Below, one piece after another: positions 8,364 through 19,368 of a stretch of DNA of 20,651 nt. The DNA comes from a virus, in the IMG/VR virus record IMGVR_UViG_3300030202_002216, positions 1 through 20,651 of that record; one strand, written 5' to 3'. Position 1 is the first letter of the stretch. Every line of letters begins with the position of its first letter. The position numbers were made by a program, and so were the translations under genes. The notes beneath the pieces were generated by a model. That model was not told the origin of the DNA. It did no database searches and saw only the letters and a list, made by a program, of their open reading frames with translations.

Positions 8364-8575
8364 TAGAATCTGTAGTAGCTTTGTTGATGTTTGTAAACGC
8401 AGAAATTAAGGAAGCCCGTTATCAAATTGATGGTATGGCACAATGTTTACGTGGCAAACGTCAGGCTGAAAGACAATACTCAGAAAATGTCATGTATAAA
8501 TGCTGGAAGGGTTCTGCAGAATTAGAACAAAATATTGATGGCTCAAAATCGATCAAGAAGCTTATAATAGAATGA
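8360..8575 (+). CDS. Small conserved phage protein, possibly exported
   Basis: A 71-residue protein starting with a short hydrophobic stretch (IESVVALLMFVNA) that could be a signal peptide cut after VNA. The mature part is charged and helical, with two Cys (29 and 48) that could form a disulfide. Starts and stops overlap both neighbours by 4 bases (ATGA), so translation is coupled across 7944-10338. I recognise similar short proteins from marine phage genomes, but their function is not known. Confidence 0.65.
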   Translation: MIESVVALLMFVNAEIKEARYQIDGMAQCLRGKRQAERQYSENVMYKCWKGSAELEQNIDGSKSIKKLIIE

Positions 8576-10338
8576 AATGGTTAATACCATTATTGTTATT
8601 AACAACTAGTGTATTTGCAGAAAACGATACAGCTACATCTACAAACATATTACCAAACGCAGGAACAACTTCATCTAATATGGATAACCATAATTTAGAT
8701 GGTGTAAACTCAGGCACAGGTAATTTATCTAACAATTCTACACACAACGGATTTACTATAACTTGTGACACAACAATCGATGGCCATTGTGGTAGAGCAT
8801 TTAATGGAGAGTTAGAATCAAGTCGTGACATGAAAGTATCAGCAGGAGATACTTTAGTTGGCGTAACAGGTACAGAATCTGGCACAACATATACAGCAAC
8901 ACAAAATAAATTAGATGGTGGCATAATATTAAATTCTTATTTTACAGTTCAAAACTGTGAAGATGGATCAAGTTCTTTTAGTTGTGGTCAATCAAGTGGT
9001 GCTGATGACAGCTATGTTCTTCATTTAAAAATTAAAGATGCTGATGGAAATACATTAGCTGACATGACAACTACAAGACTCAATGATGCAGGTTATAATG
9101 CAAACAGTGCTAAGTTTGAAGATAGTTTAACTTGGAATGGCACTGGTGGTGCTAGTTATGAATGGTACTGGCAAGGGTTTGATGGGCAACAAAGTACATC
9201 AGCTTTACGAGGACCCAACCTATTAGGTGCAGAACTACTATTAGATTTTCCAATAGATGATCACGAGGCATTAACACTAGAAGAAAGAACAGTTATTAAC
9301 GAAGCATTAAATACAACAGAACTTACAGAGAATGAAATCTATGACATTATATCTGGATTAGAGTCTATAATTGAAGAAGAGTTTTTTGCATCAGGTAATT
9401 TAGAAGAAGAAGCTAGAGTAGAACTTAGTATAGAAGAAACAGGTATAACGATTGAAGTAGCTTCTACTTCAACTGGAGCTATTATAATGGAAGCACCAAT
9501 GGTTCAAGAAATGTTTGCTCCTGTAATGGAAGAAATGCCTATTGAAACATTAAAAGAAGAAATGGTTGCAATGATACAAGAAGAAGAAATGTCTTTTATG
9601 GAAGTAATGGAGGAACTAGCACCACCTCCACCACCTATGGAATTAATAGAAGAAATGAAAGAAGAGGAACCTGTTGCAATGACAAGTAAACCTGTAATGG
9701 AAGAAGAAGCACCTAAAGAAGAAGAACCTAAAGCTATGGCAACTGGACCTATGATGAGTGCACCACCACAAGAGAAGGAAGAGACGAGCAGCAAGGAGCC
9801 ACCACCTATGGAAGTAGCATCTGCACCTAAAGAAGAAACACCAAAAGAAGAAGAATCTGTAAAAGAAGAAAAAAATATGGTAGAAGCTAAAAATGAAGAA
9901 GAAAGTAAAGAACCTGAAGAAGAGAAATCTACTAGCGAGAATGCTACAACATCCGTTGTTTCAAAACAAAATAATACCAAACAAAAAAAGGTACAATCGA
10001 AAGAAACTGTTAAACCTAAATTAAAAGTTATAATGGCTAAAGTAGATGCCAAAGTAAAAAACCCTTTAAAAAATTTACAACTTAAAAATTTAATAAAAAT
10101 GGATGCAATGGTAGATAATCAATTATCTTTAGATTCCTATAATGTGGCATTTTATGCACCAAAAGATATATATTTAGAGCAATTAAACCTTATAGATAAT
10201 AGGTTAATTTATTCAGATAAGACTCTTGCAACGTATATTCAAAATGATAAGATAGAAATCAAAGCTAAAAAACTTGAAGAGATAAATTCTAAGAAACAAC
10301 AGCTTTTAATAGAACTAGAGGTATTAAAAAATGGATAA
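8572..10338 (+). CDS. Large secreted protein with Glu/Pro/Met-rich repeat region
   Basis: A 588-residue protein. A signal peptide (residues 1-16, cut after SVFA) is followed by an Asn/Thr/Ser/Gly-rich domain to about residue 230. That domain has four Cys and ends in a GLDGQQST-like, Trp-rich segment (WYWQGF) that looks like a beta-rich adhesive fold. A helical region spans about 235-285. Residues about 300-460 are low complexity, with repeated blocks of PMMEE, EEEAPKEEEPK and APPPPPM. A basic Lys-rich C-terminal domain follows (about 470-588), ending in a coiled coil. The order suggests an exported adhesin-like or virion-surface protein. The strong antisense frame here is a by-product of the Glu codons. 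The function is unknown. Confidence 0.85.
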   Translation: MKWLIPLLLLTTSVFAENDTATSTNILPNAGTTSSNMDNHNLDGVNSGTGNLSNNSTHNGFTITCDTTIDGHCGRAFNGELESSRDMKVSAGDTLVGVTGTESGTTYTATQNKLDGGIILNSYFTVQNCEDGSSSFSCGQSSGADDSYVLHLKIKDADGNTLADMTTTRLNDAGYNANSAKFEDSLTWNGTGGASYEWYWQGFDGQQSTSALRGPNLLGAELLLDFPIDDHEALTLEERTVINEALNTTELTENEIYDIISGLESIIEEEFFASGNLEEEARVELSIEETGITIEVASTSTGAIIMEAPMVQEMFAPVMEEMPIETLKEEMVAMIQEEEMSFMEVMEELAPPPPPMELIEEMKEEEPVAMTSKPVMEEEAPKEEEPKAMATGPMMSAPPQEKEETSSKEPPPMEVASAPKEETPKEEESVKEEKNMVEAKNEEESKEPEEEKSTSENATTSVVSKQNNTKQKKVQSKETVKPKLKVIMAKVDAKVKNPLKNLQLKNLIKMDAMVDNQLSLDSYNVAFYAPKDIYLEQLNLIDNRLIYSDKTLATYIQNDKIEIKAKKLEEINSKKQQLLIELEVLKNG

Positions 10339-12349: not shown

Positions 12350-12595
12350 ATGACTGATATAAGCAAGTACAAGAATATTTCTATAGATCACGACTCTTAT
12401 AAGAAGGGACGCATCTTATCAAAAAATAGACTTGTTAAAGATGGAATTATTTCATTATCAAAAGTTGTTTCTATATTATTAAATAGAGCAGCTTCTGAAT
12501 TTAAAATTTCTGAAGAAGAATTAGAAAAAATAGAAATAACATCTAAGAAAAAAAGAAAAAATAAAAAAATAAATGGAAAAGGAAAACATGTATAA
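12350..12595 (+). CDS. Small basic protein, possible DNA-binding fold
   Basis: An 81-residue protein with a strong GGAAGGA ribosome site nine bases before its ATG. The pattern YKNISIDHDSYKKGRILSKN (a short strand, then helices) and the following LSKVVSILLNRAASEF are compatible with a ribbon-helix-helix DNA-binding fold. This is a by-eye guess only. The C-terminal 25 residues are almost all Lys with Gly, Asn and Arg. It overlaps the next gene by 8 bases. Confidence 0.65.
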   Translation: MTDISKYKNISIDHDSYKKGRILSKNRLVKDGIISLSKVVSILLNRAASEFKISEEELEKIEITSKKKRKNKKINGKGKHV

Positions 12596-15154: not shown

Positions 15155-15418
15155 ATGAGTTATAATAGAGATCCGTTATACTATCATACAAAAATTAATT
15201 TTGATGAGTTGCTAGAGAAAAGAGAAAAAGCAATCAGGTTTCAAATTGATGGCATTAAAACATGGATGCCTATAAAGTGTTGTAAAAAATTAGATGAAAA
15301 ATCTAAAACAGTTTATATTTGGACAAAAGTGTTAGAATCCAATATGATGCAAGCTAGAGAATATTTTAAAAATTTAAAAAGCACTAACGCTGAAAGTAAA
15401 AAAATTGAATTGGAATAA
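15155..15418 (+). CDS. Small charged protein, unknown function
   Basis: 87 residues starting MSYNRDPLYYHTKINFDELL. I choose ATG 15155 because the perfect AAAGGAGG (15141-15148) lies just upstream, whereas the in-frame ATG at 15137 precedes it. A conserved-looking middle has WMPIKCCKKLDEK and a helical acidic end. It overlaps the following nuclease gene by 14 bases in another frame. No function can be named. Confidence 0.7.
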   Translation: MSYNRDPLYYHTKINFDELLEKREKAIRFQIDGIKTWMPIKCCKKLDEKSKTVYIWTKVLESNMMQAREYFKNLKSTNAESKKIELE

Positions 15419-16085
15419 ACTATATGAGTACCCAAAGACTGTAAGATCATCTGTTGATGGGGTGCGTAAGTATTCTATAGGTAACGAAAAATTACCATCT
15501 GTTACGACTATACTACAAAGCACGCAAGACCCGGAGAAAGCTGAATCTTTGGCCAGGTGGAAAGCACGGGTAGGTAATGCAGAGGCAGATAGAGTCAAGA
15601 ATACTGCAGCTCTACGGGGCACTGCGATGCACACATACTTAGAACATCACGTTAAGGGCGGCAATGTACTAGATTTGACTGACTTGGGACGTGAGGCGAG
15701 CAGCATGGGGCAAACTATCATTGAGAAAGGTTTTCCTGACATGGAAGAAGTATGGGGTGTTGAGTGTACTTTATTTTATCCTGGTCTATATGCAGGCCAA
15801 ACTGATATGTGTGGTATTTATCAGGGGCGTGAAAGTATAATAGATTTTAAGCAATCAAACAAGCCAAAACGTGCCGAGTGGATAGATGAATATAAGTTGC
15901 AGCTAGCAGCGTATGCAACTGCTCATGATTGTATTTTTGGAACGAGCATCGAGCAAGGGGTAATTTTAATGTGTACGCCAGATAATTTCTTTCAACGGTT
16001 TATAGTGAATGGCAGCGAGTTTCGAGAATGGAAATGGAAGTGGCTAAAAAAGATTGACCAATACTATGATAGAAATAATAGATAA
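15405..16085 (+). CDS. PD-(D/E)XK nuclease, RecB/Cas4-like exonuclease
   Basis: 226 residues from a TTG start at 15405 that overlaps the upstream gene. The PD-(D/E)XK core is visible: GLYAGQTDM provides the Asp, IIDFKQS provides the D-x-K, and YKLQLAAYA is the RecB-type Q/Y motif. An N-terminal PSVTTIL and LRGTAMHTYLE segment is typical of phage nucleases of this type. It probably resects DNA ends for recombination, replication or packaging. No ATG gives a longer natural start. Confidence 0.85.
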   Translation: MNWNKLYEYPKTVRSSVDGVRKYSIGNEKLPSVTTILQSTQDPEKAESLARWKARVGNAEADRVKNTAALRGTAMHTYLEHHVKGGNVLDLTDLGREASSMGQTIIEKGFPDMEEVWGVECTLFYPGLYAGQTDMCGIYQGRESIIDFKQSNKPKRAEWIDEYKLQLAAYATAHDCIFGTSIEQGVILMCTPDNFFQRFIVNGSEFREWKWKWLKKIDQYYDRNNR

Positions 16086-16545
16086 CTTTTTAGAAGAAGA
16101 CGAATTTAATAAGATTCGTGATGTTTTAATGAGTGATAATTTTCCGTGGTTTTACAATGATTATATTACTAACAAGAATGATTTAAGTCATAAGTTTTAT
16201 TTTACTCATACGTTTTACAGGCAACCGGCCAGGATAAGTAATTGGTTTGACTTGTGGATCAATACTTTACAAAAATTAAAGTGCAATAGTATAATTAGAA
16301 TTAAAGCAAATATCTACCCTAAAAATAATAAAGAAGAAATAAATAAACCTCATATTGATTATAAATTTAAACATAAAGGTTGCTTATTGTATGTAAATGA
16401 TAATAATGGTGCAACTTATTTTAAAGATAAAAAAGTAATACCGAAAGCTAATAGAATTGTGTTATTTGATCCAAGCATTGAACACTCAAGTAGTCTATGT
16501 ACGGATGCAAAGAGGCGAGTGACTGTAAATTTTAATTATTTCTAA
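16066..16545 (+). CDS. 2OG-Fe(II) oxygenase-like protein 2
   Basis: 159 residues starting MIEIIDNFLEEDEFNKI. I choose ATG 16066 because that start places the conserved NFL...EEF at the N-terminus. The metal site is H96-x-D98 (PHIDYKF) with H140 (EHSSS), and the 2-oxoglutarate residue is R151. It is a near copy in architecture of the next gene: same length, same motif positions, low sequence identity. The first 20 bases overlap the nuclease gene. The substrate is unknown. Confidence 0.85.
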   Translation: MIEIIDNFLEEDEFNKIRDVLMSDNFPWFYNDYITNKNDLSHKFYFTHTFYRQPARISNWFDLWINTLQKLKCNSIIRIKANIYPKNNKEEINKPHIDYKFKHKGCLLYVNDNNGATYFKDKKVIPKANRIVLFDPSIEHSSSLCTDAKRRVTVNFNYF

Positions 16546-16549
16546 AATC

Positions 16550-17032
16550 ATGGATTTAAAGATTGTAAAAAATTATTTAGATAATGAAACTTATTATATA
16601 TTAAACAAAGAAATTAATTCAGATTATTTTCCTTTATATTACACAAATAATGTAAGTTACCGCAATAAAAAAGATAGCTTTATGTTTAATCATATTTTTT
16701 ATAACAATGGTGTAAATAGTAGTTTTTTTGAAAAAATTGTATTACCTTTAATTAAACCTTTAAATGTTAAAAATTTAATAAGAGCAAAATTAAATTTTTA
16801 TACCAATCAAAAACATCAAATAAAACATGTTTATCATACAGATAGTGAGGAAGACCATAAAGTTGCTTTATATTCTTTAAATACAAATAATGGCTATACG
16901 GAATTTGAAAATGGACCTATTGTAAAATCAGTAGCGAATCAGCTGTGTGTATTTGATGGTAAATTAAAACATAGATCTGTTACTCAAACCGATAAAGATT
17001 CCAGGATTAATATAAATATTAATTTTATATAG
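16550..17032 (+). CDS. 2OG-Fe(II) oxygenase-like protein 3, paralogue of the preceding one
   Basis: 160 residues. The metal site is H96-x-D98 (YHTDSEE) with H141 (KHRSV) and R152. The ligand spacing and length match the upstream protein (H96, D98, H140, R151), so the two arose by tandem duplication and then diverged strongly. Both have a Tyr/Phe-rich N-terminal half (YFPLYYTNNV). The genes are 4 bases apart and the product is rich in Asn and Lys. The enzymatic activity is inferred. The substrate is unknown. Confidence 0.85.
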   Translation: MDLKIVKNYLDNETYYILNKEINSDYFPLYYTNNVSYRNKKDSFMFNHIFYNNGVNSSFFEKIVLPLIKPLNVKNLIRAKLNFYTNQKHQIKHVYHTDSEEDHKVALYSLNTNNGYTEFENGPIVKSVANQLCVFDGKLKHRSVTQTDKDSRINININFI

Positions 17033-17043
17033 GTGAAGAACTT

Positions 17044-17562
17044 ATGAACATAAAAAAAATACAAACAGAATTTATTACAATAGATGTTCCAAATCATAAA
17101 AAACATAAACCTATACTACTGGATTTAATTAGTAAGATGCCTAATAAATCTTTACATAGAGTATCTAAAACAGATTGGGAACTACCTAAGGATTTTAAAA
17201 GAGAATATCTAGAGTATTTTTATGATAATATTGCAACTGATATTATGCACCAACAAAAAAAATATTTTAATGCTGGAAATTGGACTATTGGTAATGCATG
17301 GTTTCAACAGTATGAAAAAAACTCAACTCATGATTATCATACCCATGGTCTTGCAAACTATACCAATGTTTATTTCTTAGAACTACCGGACCCTAAGTTT
17401 AAAACTTCTATAAAAGTTGGAAAAAAAGAGTATAATTACAAGGTAAAAGAAGGCCAGATTATTACCTTTCCAGCGCACCTATTGCATGGTTCTATGTCTA
17501 ATGGTGATCTTAGAAAAACTGTAATTTCTTTTAACTCAAATTTTAAATATTATGTACTATAG
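17044..17562 (+). CDS. 2OG-Fe(II) oxygenase-like protein 4
   Basis: 172 residues. It has an HxH first motif (H99 and H101 in DYHTHGLANYTNVYFLEL), a distal His H148 (LLHGS) and R157, the form seen in PF13759-like phage oxygenases. This differs from the HxD pair upstream and matches the first and fifth oxygenases. AGGTGAAG at 17032-17039 is the ribosome site. The gene overlaps the SET gene by 11 bases. The substrate is unknown, but the coupling to a SET-domain gene suggests a shared protein target. Confidence 0.85.
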   Translation: MNIKKIQTEFITIDVPNHKKHKPILLDLISKMPNKSLHRVSKTDWELPKDFKREYLEYFYDNIATDIMHQQKKYFNAGNWTIGNAWFQQYEKNSTHDYHTHGLANYTNVYFLELPDPKFKTSIKVGKKEYNYKVKEGQIITFPAHLLHGSMSNGDLRKTVISFNSNFKYYVL

Positions 17563-17902
17563 ACCCTTACCTAATGGATTATATATTGGCCTATCTAAGA
17601 TAGAAGGACAAGGAGTGTATACTTCAAAGGAACTGCTGCGTGGTTGTAAATTAGGCGAATCTCATTACCGGATCGATGTATCGGGCGTCAACTCTATTAA
17701 TGAAGAAGAGAATGAAAACATAATAATTAGAACTCCGTTGGGTGGATTTATGAATCATAATGTAAAACCTAATTGTCATCGGTCGCAGATAAGAATTAAA
17801 CCTGGAATTGATAAGTGGGTTATAACTGTGGTTGAAGACATTAATCCTGGTGAAGAATTGACTTTAAAATATGAATTTTATGACCCAGAAAAACCAATTT
17901 AA
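17552..17902 (+). CDS. SET-domain protein, putative protein lysine methyltransferase
   Basis: 116 residues that cover the core of a SET domain. The SAM-binding strand is KIEGQGVYTSKEL (about 17-29), the knot-forming motif is FMNHNVKPNC (66-75), and the C-terminal motif is GEELTLKYEF (105-114). The knot Asn and His are present. The last motif has Lys where Asp often occurs (LKY instead of xDY). The size is shorter than most bacterial SET proteins, so it is a minimal version. It is coupled to the oxygenase gene by an 11-base overlap. A substrate cannot be inferred from sequence. Confidence 0.85.
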   Translation: MYYRPLPNGLYIGLSKIEGQGVYTSKELLRGCKLGESHYRIDVSGVNSINEEENENIIIRTPLGGFMNHNVKPNCHRSQIRIKPGIDKWVITVVEDINPGEELTLKYEFYDPEKPI

Positions 17903-17941
17903 ATTGTGGTAGAACTAAGGCAATTGTGGCAGAAACGAGGC
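17902..17941 (+). repeat. Two 20-base tandem direct repeats
   Basis: AATTGTGGTAGAACTAAGGC (17902-17921) is followed immediately by AATTGTGGCAGAAACGAGGC (17922-17941), with 17 of 20 bases identical. A diverged third copy (GATTGTAGCAGAATTCG) follows at 17954. The first copy starts at the last base of the SET stop codon. The TGTGG core is shared with the larger repeat cluster downstream. Confidence 0.6.
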
Positions 17942-17983
17942 ACGAGTGCGGCGGATTGTAGCAGAATTCGACGTACACATAGT

Positions 17984-18006
17984 CACTTTTTAGTGCATTT
18001 TTTTTT
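17984..18006 (+). terminator. Weak candidate terminator after the SET gene
   Basis: CACT (17984-17987) and AGTG (17992-17995) form a four-base stem around TTTT, followed by nine T's (17998-18006). The stem is too short for a confident intrinsic terminator. The position just after the oxygenase-SET block is suitable. Confidence 0.25.
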
Positions 18007-18011
18007 AAAAA

Positions 18012-18413
18012 TGTGGAAGATTTTTTAAAAACACAGCAAAAAGTATGCGACAGTTTGTCAGTTTTTTGTTTTCGAGAACAAAAATGTGGAAAATGGTATC
18101 AAAAACCCGCATAGAATTTACAGTAACAGGCAAAAATGTGGAAAATGTGGAAGATTCAAAATGCTAGAACCATTGGTATATAAGGAAAGTAATCAATTTC
18201 CACATTTCCACGTTTTTCAAAATGTTTTGAGGCATAAAAATGTTTAAAAGTATTTTAAGTCTTTATTAGTAGAAAAAAATTAAAATTAATTATTTTTCGC
18301 ACTATACAACAAAAGTAGCTTCCACACTTTTAAAATCAAAAATGTGGAAAATGTAGAAAGCCGCAGTAGCCAACACTTTTTTAACATTGAAAATGTGGAA
18401 GAAATGTGGAAGA
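18012..18413. repeat. Cluster of TGTGGAA repeats in both orientations, candidate origin or packaging site
   Basis: This is the largest gene-free stretch. Forward copies are TGTGGAAGA at 18012, 18146, 18394 and 18405, and TGTGGAAAA at 18085, 18137 and 18343. A TGTAGAAAG variant is at 18352. Inverted copies are ATTTCCACA (18196-18204), ATTTCCACG (18204-18212) and GCTTCCACA (18318-18326). A 20-base imperfect inverted repeat pairs 18131-18153 with 18195-18217. TTTTCCACA differs by one base from the E. coli DnaA box TTATCCACA. The AT-rich stretch 18237-18300 could be an unwinding element. The cluster sits near TerS, so a TerS binding site is the other reading. Confidence 0.6.
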
Positions 18414-18598
18414 AGCAAAGTATGCTAGGCACAGTAATATCTATGATGACAGAAAAAGAATTTTGGGATACATTCAATAAAAAACACAATCCTGAATATT
18501 ATTATGCCAAAAATAAAGAAAAAGAAAAAGAGCAAAAGAAAAATAAAAAACAAAAAAACTATACCTTTAAATATAAAATCTTTAGGAAACAAGATTGA
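18404..18598 (+). CDS. Small Lys-rich protein, unknown function, start uncertain
   Basis: A 64-residue protein starting MWKKQSMLGTVISMMTEKEF. The open frame extends upstream to a GTG at 18344, but those 20 residues are encoded by the TGTGGAA repeats, so I prefer the ATG at 18404, or the next ATG at 18422. The C-terminal half is a long Lys/Glu run (KNKEKEKEQKKNKKQKN). It overlaps the next gene by 95 bases in another frame. There is no recognisable domain. Confidence 0.45.
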   Translation: MWKKQSMLGTVISMMTEKEFWDTFNKKHNPEYYYAKNKEKEKEQKKNKKQKNYTFKYKIFRKQD

Positions 18599-18848
18599 TG
18601 CATATCCATTTGTAGTTATAGAATGGTTTGATATCGAGGGGGATGCCGGCTGGAGTTCTACAAAAGATTTAAATAGAGAACAATTACCAACATGTGTTTC
18701 TAGAGGTTATCTGTTAAGTCAGAAAAAAGGCGTCACTAGAATATTTACTGATTATATAAAAACAAAAGACAAACCAACTTTCGATAATATTGGCAACACA
18801 ACTATAATTCCAACGTCAGTGATAGTGTCAATTAAAAGACTTAATTAA
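18504..18848 (+). CDS. Conserved phage protein with a compact domain
   Basis: 114 residues. Residues about 32-114 (YPFVVIEWFDIEGDAGWSS onward, then LPTCVSRGYLLSQ and a TIIPTSVIVSIKRL end) are a domain I recognise from marine phage genomes, of unknown function. The first 31 residues are a Lys-rich extension starting at ATG 18504. It overlaps TerS tail to tail by 8 bases. It could bind nucleic acid near the packaging region, which is inference from position only. Confidence 0.75.
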   Translation: MPKIKKKKKSKRKIKNKKTIPLNIKSLGNKIDAYPFVVIEWFDIEGDAGWSSTKDLNREQLPTCVSRGYLLSQKKGVTRIFTDYIKTKDKPTFDNIGNTTIIPTSVIVSIKRLN

Positions 18849-19368
18849 CTTTTTTTACTTTTGGTAGTCTTGACTGTTCTACTTTCTTTTTTACTTCTTT
18901 AGTAATATCTTCTGCTTCAACACCTTCAAGTATAGGTGAATATTGATCTACAATATCTTTCATTCTTGTTTCTAGTTCCTCTGCGGATAGATCATCTAAC
19001 TTACCAGTTCTAATTATTTTTTGTTCAATATATAATCCTGCTGCTTTACCTCGTGCAACTTCTGCATTAACTGCTGCAGACCATGCACCTTTGTTTAAAG
19101 CTGCTTGTCTTATCTTACCCAATTCTGTGATGTGTCTTCCATAGGTGACATCATATTTTTTTTGATACTCTTCTCTGATCTCACCTATGTATTTAACAAC
19201 TAAAGGGTACTTTTTTGGATTCTGTAATTCTGATGCTGTGATTCGTGCTCTGTCTTTTGCATAGCCTGCTTCGATGGCACATTCAAATGCATACTTACGA
19301 CCTTCGTTAGTCACAAGCTCATGTGCAAACTTAATTTGCATTTCTGTTAATTTTTTTGGTAAACCCAT
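18841..19368 (-). CDS. terS: Terminase small subunit
   Basis: A 175-residue protein on the - strand. The N-terminal LTEMQIKFAHELVTNEGRKY and EAGYAKDRARITASELQNP are the helix-turn-helix region typical of phage small terminases. It binds the phage DNA and recruits the large subunit for packaging. The C-terminal half is helical and Lys/Glu-rich (KEVKKKVEQ), suitable for oligomerisation. It is transcribed opposite to nearly all other genes, and the large subunit is not in the window. There are only about six bases from a possible -10 box to the ATG. Confidence 0.85.
   Translation of the reverse strand: MGLPKKLTEMQIKFAHELVTNEGRKYAFECAIEAGYAKDRARITASELQNPKKYPLVVKYIGEIREEYQKKYDVTYGRHITELGKIRQAALNKGAWSAAVNAEVARGKAAGLYIEQKIIRTGKLDDLSAEELETRMKDIVDQYSPILEGVEAEDITKEVKKKVEQSRLPKVKKVN

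Follow-up and report, generated by a model that had tools for sequence, protein, structure and literature searches.

A repeat array that keeps its place and switches its word among ocean phages: a candidate initiation site

What function is served by a dense array of short repeats in the non-coding gap close to the terminase small subunit (TerS) gene of a marine phage, and what kind of protein would read it? The question is raised by a viral record of 20,651 bases (IMGVR_UViG_3300030202_002216, positions 1 to 20,651), which was analysed over its whole length and is termed here the window. The window carries genes for an AEP-type primase, a UvrD-like helicase, a family A DNA polymerase, an exonuclease, a phrog_25889 protein and TerS. 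Gene order and protein matches place it near the pelagiphages HTVC027P and HTVC023P, and to judge from these isolates SAR11 bacteria are the probable host of this ocean phage. Among the titles and abstract openings of the open-licence literature, no account of an origin or a packaging site in this group of phages was found; a term search of the accessible text of two papers gave no mention of origin, packaging, terminase or intergenic in one (PMC12753301) and no mention of origin of replication or termini in the other (PMC9599517).

The repeat array in the window

The array occupies a non-coding region at positions 17902-18445 that contains repeat words, an element termed U and an AT-rich tract. 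It is bounded by an open reading frame at 17552-17902 and by a small one whose ATG at 18446 is kept in relatives; none of the short open reading frames within the gap is conserved in an alignment with 21 relatives, and a comparison with Rfam gave no match at the gathering threshold. Directly after the array is the small, conserved and lysine-rich open reading frame (MTEKEFW..., 18446-18598, + strand), which overlaps the phrog_25889 gene (18504-18848, + strand) in a different frame. The latter gene lies between the array and TerS in relatives; TerS itself (18841-19368, - strand) matches phrog_51 with an E value of 1.5e-9. A PD-(D/E)XK-type exonuclease gene (15405-16085, + strand) borders the array in many relatives, and in the window 2OG oxygenase-like and SET-domain genes separate the two. 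The separating cassette (16054-17902), which comprises three 2OG-Fe(II) oxygenase-like genes and the SET-domain gene, has little or no match in most of 25 other records compared. Elsewhere in the window, dense AGAAGAA repeats at 9370-9450 are found within the open reading frame 8572-10338, which encodes a glutamate-rich protein.

Nine exact copies of TGTGGAA or its complement TTCCACA are present in 17902-18413, and 1000 dinucleotide shuffles of the region gave a mean of 0.097 and a maximum of 2. By exact word count these begin on the + strand at 18012 (18012-18018), 18085 (18085-18091), 18137, 18146, 18343, 18394 and 18405, and on the - strand at 18198 and 18320 (18320-18326). Four further copies have one mismatch: TGTGGTA at 17905 and TGTGGCA at 17925, which form a degenerate pair 20 bp apart (17905-17931, + strand), TTCCACG at 18206 and TGTAGAA at 18352. 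The preliminary description, which spoke of about a dozen forward and inverted copies, is thus borne out. The copies at 18137 and 18146 form a head-to-tail doublet, TGTGGAAAATGTGGAA, with a 9-bp step (18137-18152, + strand); a second doublet has an 11-bp step (18394-18411, + strand), and the word at 18343 is followed after 9 bp by the TGTAGAA variant (18343-18358, + strand). An inverted doublet, TTCCACATTTCCACG, has an 8-bp step, the second copy carrying its one mismatch (18198-18212, - strand). The dyad described earlier is also present, as the head-to-tail doublet (18131-18153) faces the inverted one (18195-18217); ungapped pairing yields arms of 13-14 nt at 92-93%.

The three DnaA-box-like copies of that description were found as well. 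These are TGTGGAAAA at 18085, 18137 and 18343, which reads TTTTCCACA on the other strand and differs there by one base from TTATCCACA. The AT-rich segment beside the repeats corresponds to 18246-18295, where the 50-mer has 10% GC and ties with that at 16556 for the lowest GC content in the window. The U element, CCTTATATACCAATGGTTCTAG on the - strand at 18164-18185, is common to most of the word classes given below. A degenerate second U-like element, weak in the window, was aligned by eye to the relatives' GTTGGTATACAACAA at 18298-18312 (+ strand).

A constant place and a changing word

The same intergenic region was compared in relatives fetched by two routes. With TerS as the query, the best 80 of 107 related loci were taken, and 19 of these 80, some of them near-copies, hold TGTGGAA clusters in the same gap; other TerS-fetched loci hold an array of a different word there. 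Repeats are thus present, not absent, in relatives. A further 80 loci were obtained through a predicted ribbon-helix-helix gene. The order exonuclease, array, phrog_25889 gene (+) and TerS (-) holds in 17 of 18 of these loci that were laid out, though their TerS proteins are only 30-50% identical to that of the window; no TerS match was found in L210. Among the same 18, p19371 follows the cassette in 15 and nuc in 16.

In a blind procedure, one overrepresented word of the form NNN-ACA was sought in the exonuclease-to-TerS gap. A repeated word of this kind was called in 66 of 102 distinct gaps, the window included; of 504 length-matched control windows from other parts of these loci, 10 gave a call. 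When all 64 trinucleotides were compared as cores, ACA came out first, followed by A/T runs, as scored in the arrays alone and without a control. The words called are TCCACA (17 gaps), GGTACA (14), ACCACA (10), GTTACA (9), GATACA (5), TACACA (4), TCTACA (3) and four singletons, and the TGTGGA of the window belongs to the TCCACA class. No word was called at the threshold in 36 of the 102 gaps, and the procedure gave no call in L021. A further class, CTACAA in L043, L044, L048 and L050, lies below threshold, and a GGTGACC-type repeat takes the place of the NNN-ACA word in L037, L040 and L041. As for the isolates, the repeat of HTVC023P differs by eye (CTAGGAAA), and placement of HTVC027P in the GTTACA class was rejected, as it has two copies only and received no blind call.

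A search with the TGTGGAA doublet matched 60 contigs, of which 37 hold at least six words in 600 bp together with TerS and 23 have no array with TerS. Seven of the 37 are loci already in the set; the other 30 represent a far clade with exonucleases (where matched) 60-67% and TerS 54-57% identical. The array is a word-switching site, its place constant and its word differing by lineage. Since the word of the whole array has been replaced repeatedly, different recognition codes exist at one site among lineages. The pattern points to a site at which DNA copying or packing begins, with a 'password' that changes between lineages.

Word spacing was determined over 68 arrays, two of which were added by hand. 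Within 40 bp there are 163 pairs of neighbours in the same orientation; the step is 8-11 bp in 123 of them and exactly 9 in 67, so that the arrays display regular spacing of one tandem short word, a trait of iteron-type origins. Variation in the word motif lies in its left half; the right half, ACA and then A or T, is the more constant.

The consensus of the U element is TATATA-WA-YCAAYGR-YT. A U score of 12 or more is reached in 78 of 102 arrays versus 5 of 303 control windows, an enrichment that is partly circular because the matrix derives from TerS-fetched loci and two isolates. More independent support comes from the GATACA and GGTACA classes, which were mostly fetched via another gene: at a score of 10 or more, U is found in 5 of 5 GATACA and 13 of 14 GGTACA arrays, and in 1 of 9 GTTACA arrays. 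It is absent from the single TGCACA array and the single ACTACA array, and in HTVC023P a U-like sequence is found upstream of the TerS gene. The density is 1.69 per kb in arrays versus 0.01 per kb in flanks, with the motif defined on the same arrays, and U is present in both orientations. Exact IHF consensus sites number 36 in the arrays versus 5.9 expected, and U fits the IHF consensus in some word classes other than TGTGGAA. The 17 TGTGGAA arrays scanned contain no exact IHF consensus, and U is therefore not simply an IHF site.

Proteins compared with the word

Nine protein families were compared with the word: exonuclease, TerS, phrog_25889, p19371, nuc, ribbon-helix-helix, zinc ribbon, primase and helicase. 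None sorts cleanly with it. The exonuclease sorts best, with an AUC of 0.939 versus 0.715-0.890 for six others. A quick tree of 71 exonuclease rows requires 13 changes to account for 11 words, where the minimum is 10 and shuffling gives a mean of 45.2, and on the TerS tree the word changes 15 times (least possible 11, shuffled mean 49.1). GTTACA occurs in separate exonuclease clades, as does GGTACA. Because the exonuclease gene adjoins the array, linkage alone could account for the sorting.

TerS was rejected as the determinant of the word, as TGTGGAA occurs with two clearly different TerS helix-turn-helix types, and the TerS proteins of L033 (TACACA) and L035 (TCCACA) are 97.7% identical. Primase and helicase were rejected as readers on a pair of relatives, G011 and G013, that share a word with primases 28% and helicases 35% identical. 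The exonucleases of this pair are 98% and the TerS proteins 100% identical, and on these sequence comparisons the array is inherited with the late block and not with the replication block, since word, exonuclease and TerS are shared but primase and helicase are not. G011 and G012, whose polymerases are 93% identical, have different words. Replication and late blocks have been exchanged between G011 and G013 (L117-L119, L109-L110), most late genes being more than 90% identical and the primase 28%.

The phrog_25889, p19371 and nuc proteins were likewise set aside as readers, since there are pairs that are highly identical yet differ in word, or that share a word despite low identity. For the phrog_25889 protein, one word goes with two forms at the same place that are about 31% identical to each other. 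Its AF2 model is mostly a beta small barrel (mean pLDDT 83) whose top Foldseek matches are weak and mainly to Sm/Hfq-like small barrels; no function is assigned to it, as no Foldseek match had E under 0.001. A column-by-column search for specificity residues gave nothing standing out beyond phylogeny.

Origin, packaging and other readings

A cis-acting initiation site, whether origin or packaging site, is the best kind of reading, because the place is conserved, the words are paired, and an AT-rich tract and the U element are present. The array may be the phage's own cis-acting nucleoprotein site working like an iteron-type origin, most likely a replication origin; this is put forward tentatively, at somewhat less than an even chance. 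The proposal concerns an iteron-like way of working, not proven membership of the iteron-origin family. The short words, which have an NNN-ACA core and read TGTGGAA in the window, would be bound cooperatively by a DNA-binding protein, in both orientations and in head-to-tail pairs spaced by roughly a turn of the helix. The role of U would be to bend the complex or anchor it, and replication would start at the array with opening of the AT-rich tract.

Counting against an origin, GC skew does not point to one at the array, the array belongs with the late block and not with the replication block, no gene family tested follows the word cleanly, and U is lacking in eight of nine GTTACA arrays and in the single TGCACA and ACTACA arrays. 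The 36 gaps without a call and the 23 doublet matches without an array and TerS count against it as well. GC skew, which had been suggested as a check, runs positive over most of the genomes examined; in most of them it falls immediately to the right of the array, a pattern that is not diagnostic. In HTVC027P, minus-strand genes are found where the skew dips right of the array.

Packaging initiation at a pac site is the main rival; it is rather unlikely, yet several observations agree with it. A headful start would lie here, the repeats bending or marking the DNA without being read letter by letter by TerS. The array is beside TerS in 17 of 18 laid-out loci, which were partly chosen through TerS, and it goes with the late rather than the replication block. 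Ends were compared in four long relatives: those of G012 (59,636 bp) overlap by 127 bp within purM, so that the genome closes there; those of G067 (58,740 bp) both fall in a groES homologue and do not overlap; and G068 and G010 show no end overlap. The breaks at unrelated places in the two near-full-length genomes would fit circular permutation, although both are assemblies. Neither genome breaks at the array, so the relatives show no fixed end there; genome termini near it, which the preliminary description had suggested searching for, did not appear. On the assembled relatives, a cos site is thus not supported. Of the earlier proposal of a pac or cos site read by TerS, the cos half loses support from the position of the relatives' ends and the reading by TerS from the uncoupling of TerS and word, and the pac part remains.

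That uncoupling, which runs in both directions, also counts against pac, and switching of every copy suggests a sequence-specific reader, which TerS does not resemble. The lack of TerS covariation only weakens a pac site, because TerS need not read pac repeats: in the excerpted text of PMC4737164, the DNA-binding domain of SF6 TerS is no reader of them, and some direct repeats differ between the pac sites of SPP1 and SF6 although TerS is exchangeable. A further point against it is another pac candidate across TerS, an array of the constant word GCTTG in heptads. Tandem GCTTGNN heptads lie at the end of the nuc open reading frame at the contig end (20599-20651); there are 17 steps of 7 bp in L012 and 16 steps in HTVC027P, and many others have only scattered copies. 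These heptads are a second candidate for pac or for an origin.

Control of transcription of the small gene pair at 18446-18848 is a distinctly doubtful alternative. The words would be operators, and U possibly an extended -10 promoter (TTGGTATATA, + strand). The array is directly upstream of conserved + strand genes, and by eye the reverse reading of U looks like TG-n-TATATA, several arrays having a word upstream of it. Such control would require about ten operators over about 400 bp for two small genes, however, and U stands in both orientations and almost nowhere outside arrays; the word has also stayed the same where the downstream gene gave way to a form with about 31% identity.

It is very improbable that the array serves the predicted ribbon-helix-helix protein (gene at 12350-12595) as its centromere or as a set of operators. 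In about 30 sequences strand residues 9/11/13 seemed to follow the word, but a wider locus set contradicted this early match and the protein was rejected as word determinant: L184 and L189 have identical proteins with the words GATACA and GGTACA, and the N-S-S strand occurs with TCCACA, ACCACA, GGTACA, GATACA and GTTACA. The fold is a reading of the sequence, with nothing over the cut-off in Pfam. Relatives of this protein are found in very many viral contigs (at least 600 pattern matches, at least 487 confirmed), and the copy in the window is diverged and longer at the C-terminus.

The preliminary idea of a phage origin that recruits host DnaA keeps its initiation-site part but loses DnaA, since the words misfit, and DnaA is disfavoured as reader to the point of being barely credible. 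For it are the three TTTTCCACA copies and the TACACA class, which could fit a relaxed box; against it, TTWTNCACA fits only three of the nine window words, which is no DnaA-box cluster, 108 TCCACA-class words have T (100) or C (8) but never A at the third box position, 37 of them have C at the second, and the homologous GGTACA, GATACA, GTTACA, ACCACA and TCTACA arrays do not fit the box. Nor is TTWTCCACA enriched over the reversed pattern in whole-genome counts of five SAR11 genomes (13, 35, 42, 42 and 26 versus 24, 51, 63, 46 and 52).

Replacement of the word in the whole array is the point of interest, whichever function, origin, packaging or transcription, is right. As the place stays constant, it represents a natural experiment on a DNA-binding code changing in all copies, and word switching could matter for which phages are able to exploit the machinery of others. 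A broader hypothesis, itself rather doubtful, is that widespread ocean phages keep an initiation site at a fixed address and rewrite its word wholesale, in several to ten copies, with a reader that is neither TerS nor primase/helicase; co-infecting phages might then tell self from non-self, in replication or packaging, by a password that diversifies. As a candidate site the array is specific and can be tested.

Several known systems display parts of this pattern. The pac sites of SPP1 and SF6, as the excerpted source describes them, resemble the array in having direct repeats near the TerS gene (PMC4737164). The SPP1 pac covers promoters and the start of the TerS gene, whereas here the TerS gene is oriented the opposite way and the array is located past its 3' end, separated from it by another gene. 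Phage lambda cosB consists of R sites plus an IHF site. The likeness to cosB is in repeats and an IHF-like element near TerS; the difference is that the relatives here have no fixed genome end at the array and the words do not follow TerS. Lineage-specific iterons are found in lambdoid O/ori and in plasmid origins. They are also described for geminiviruses in the accessible part of PMC12548392. Unlike these iteron origins, the array has a position beside TerS and a word that primase and helicase fail to track, and its initiator is only postulated. It resembles them in its short repeated words, a candidate AT-rich tract for unwinding and an extra bending-type site, and also in a word that differs between close relatives.
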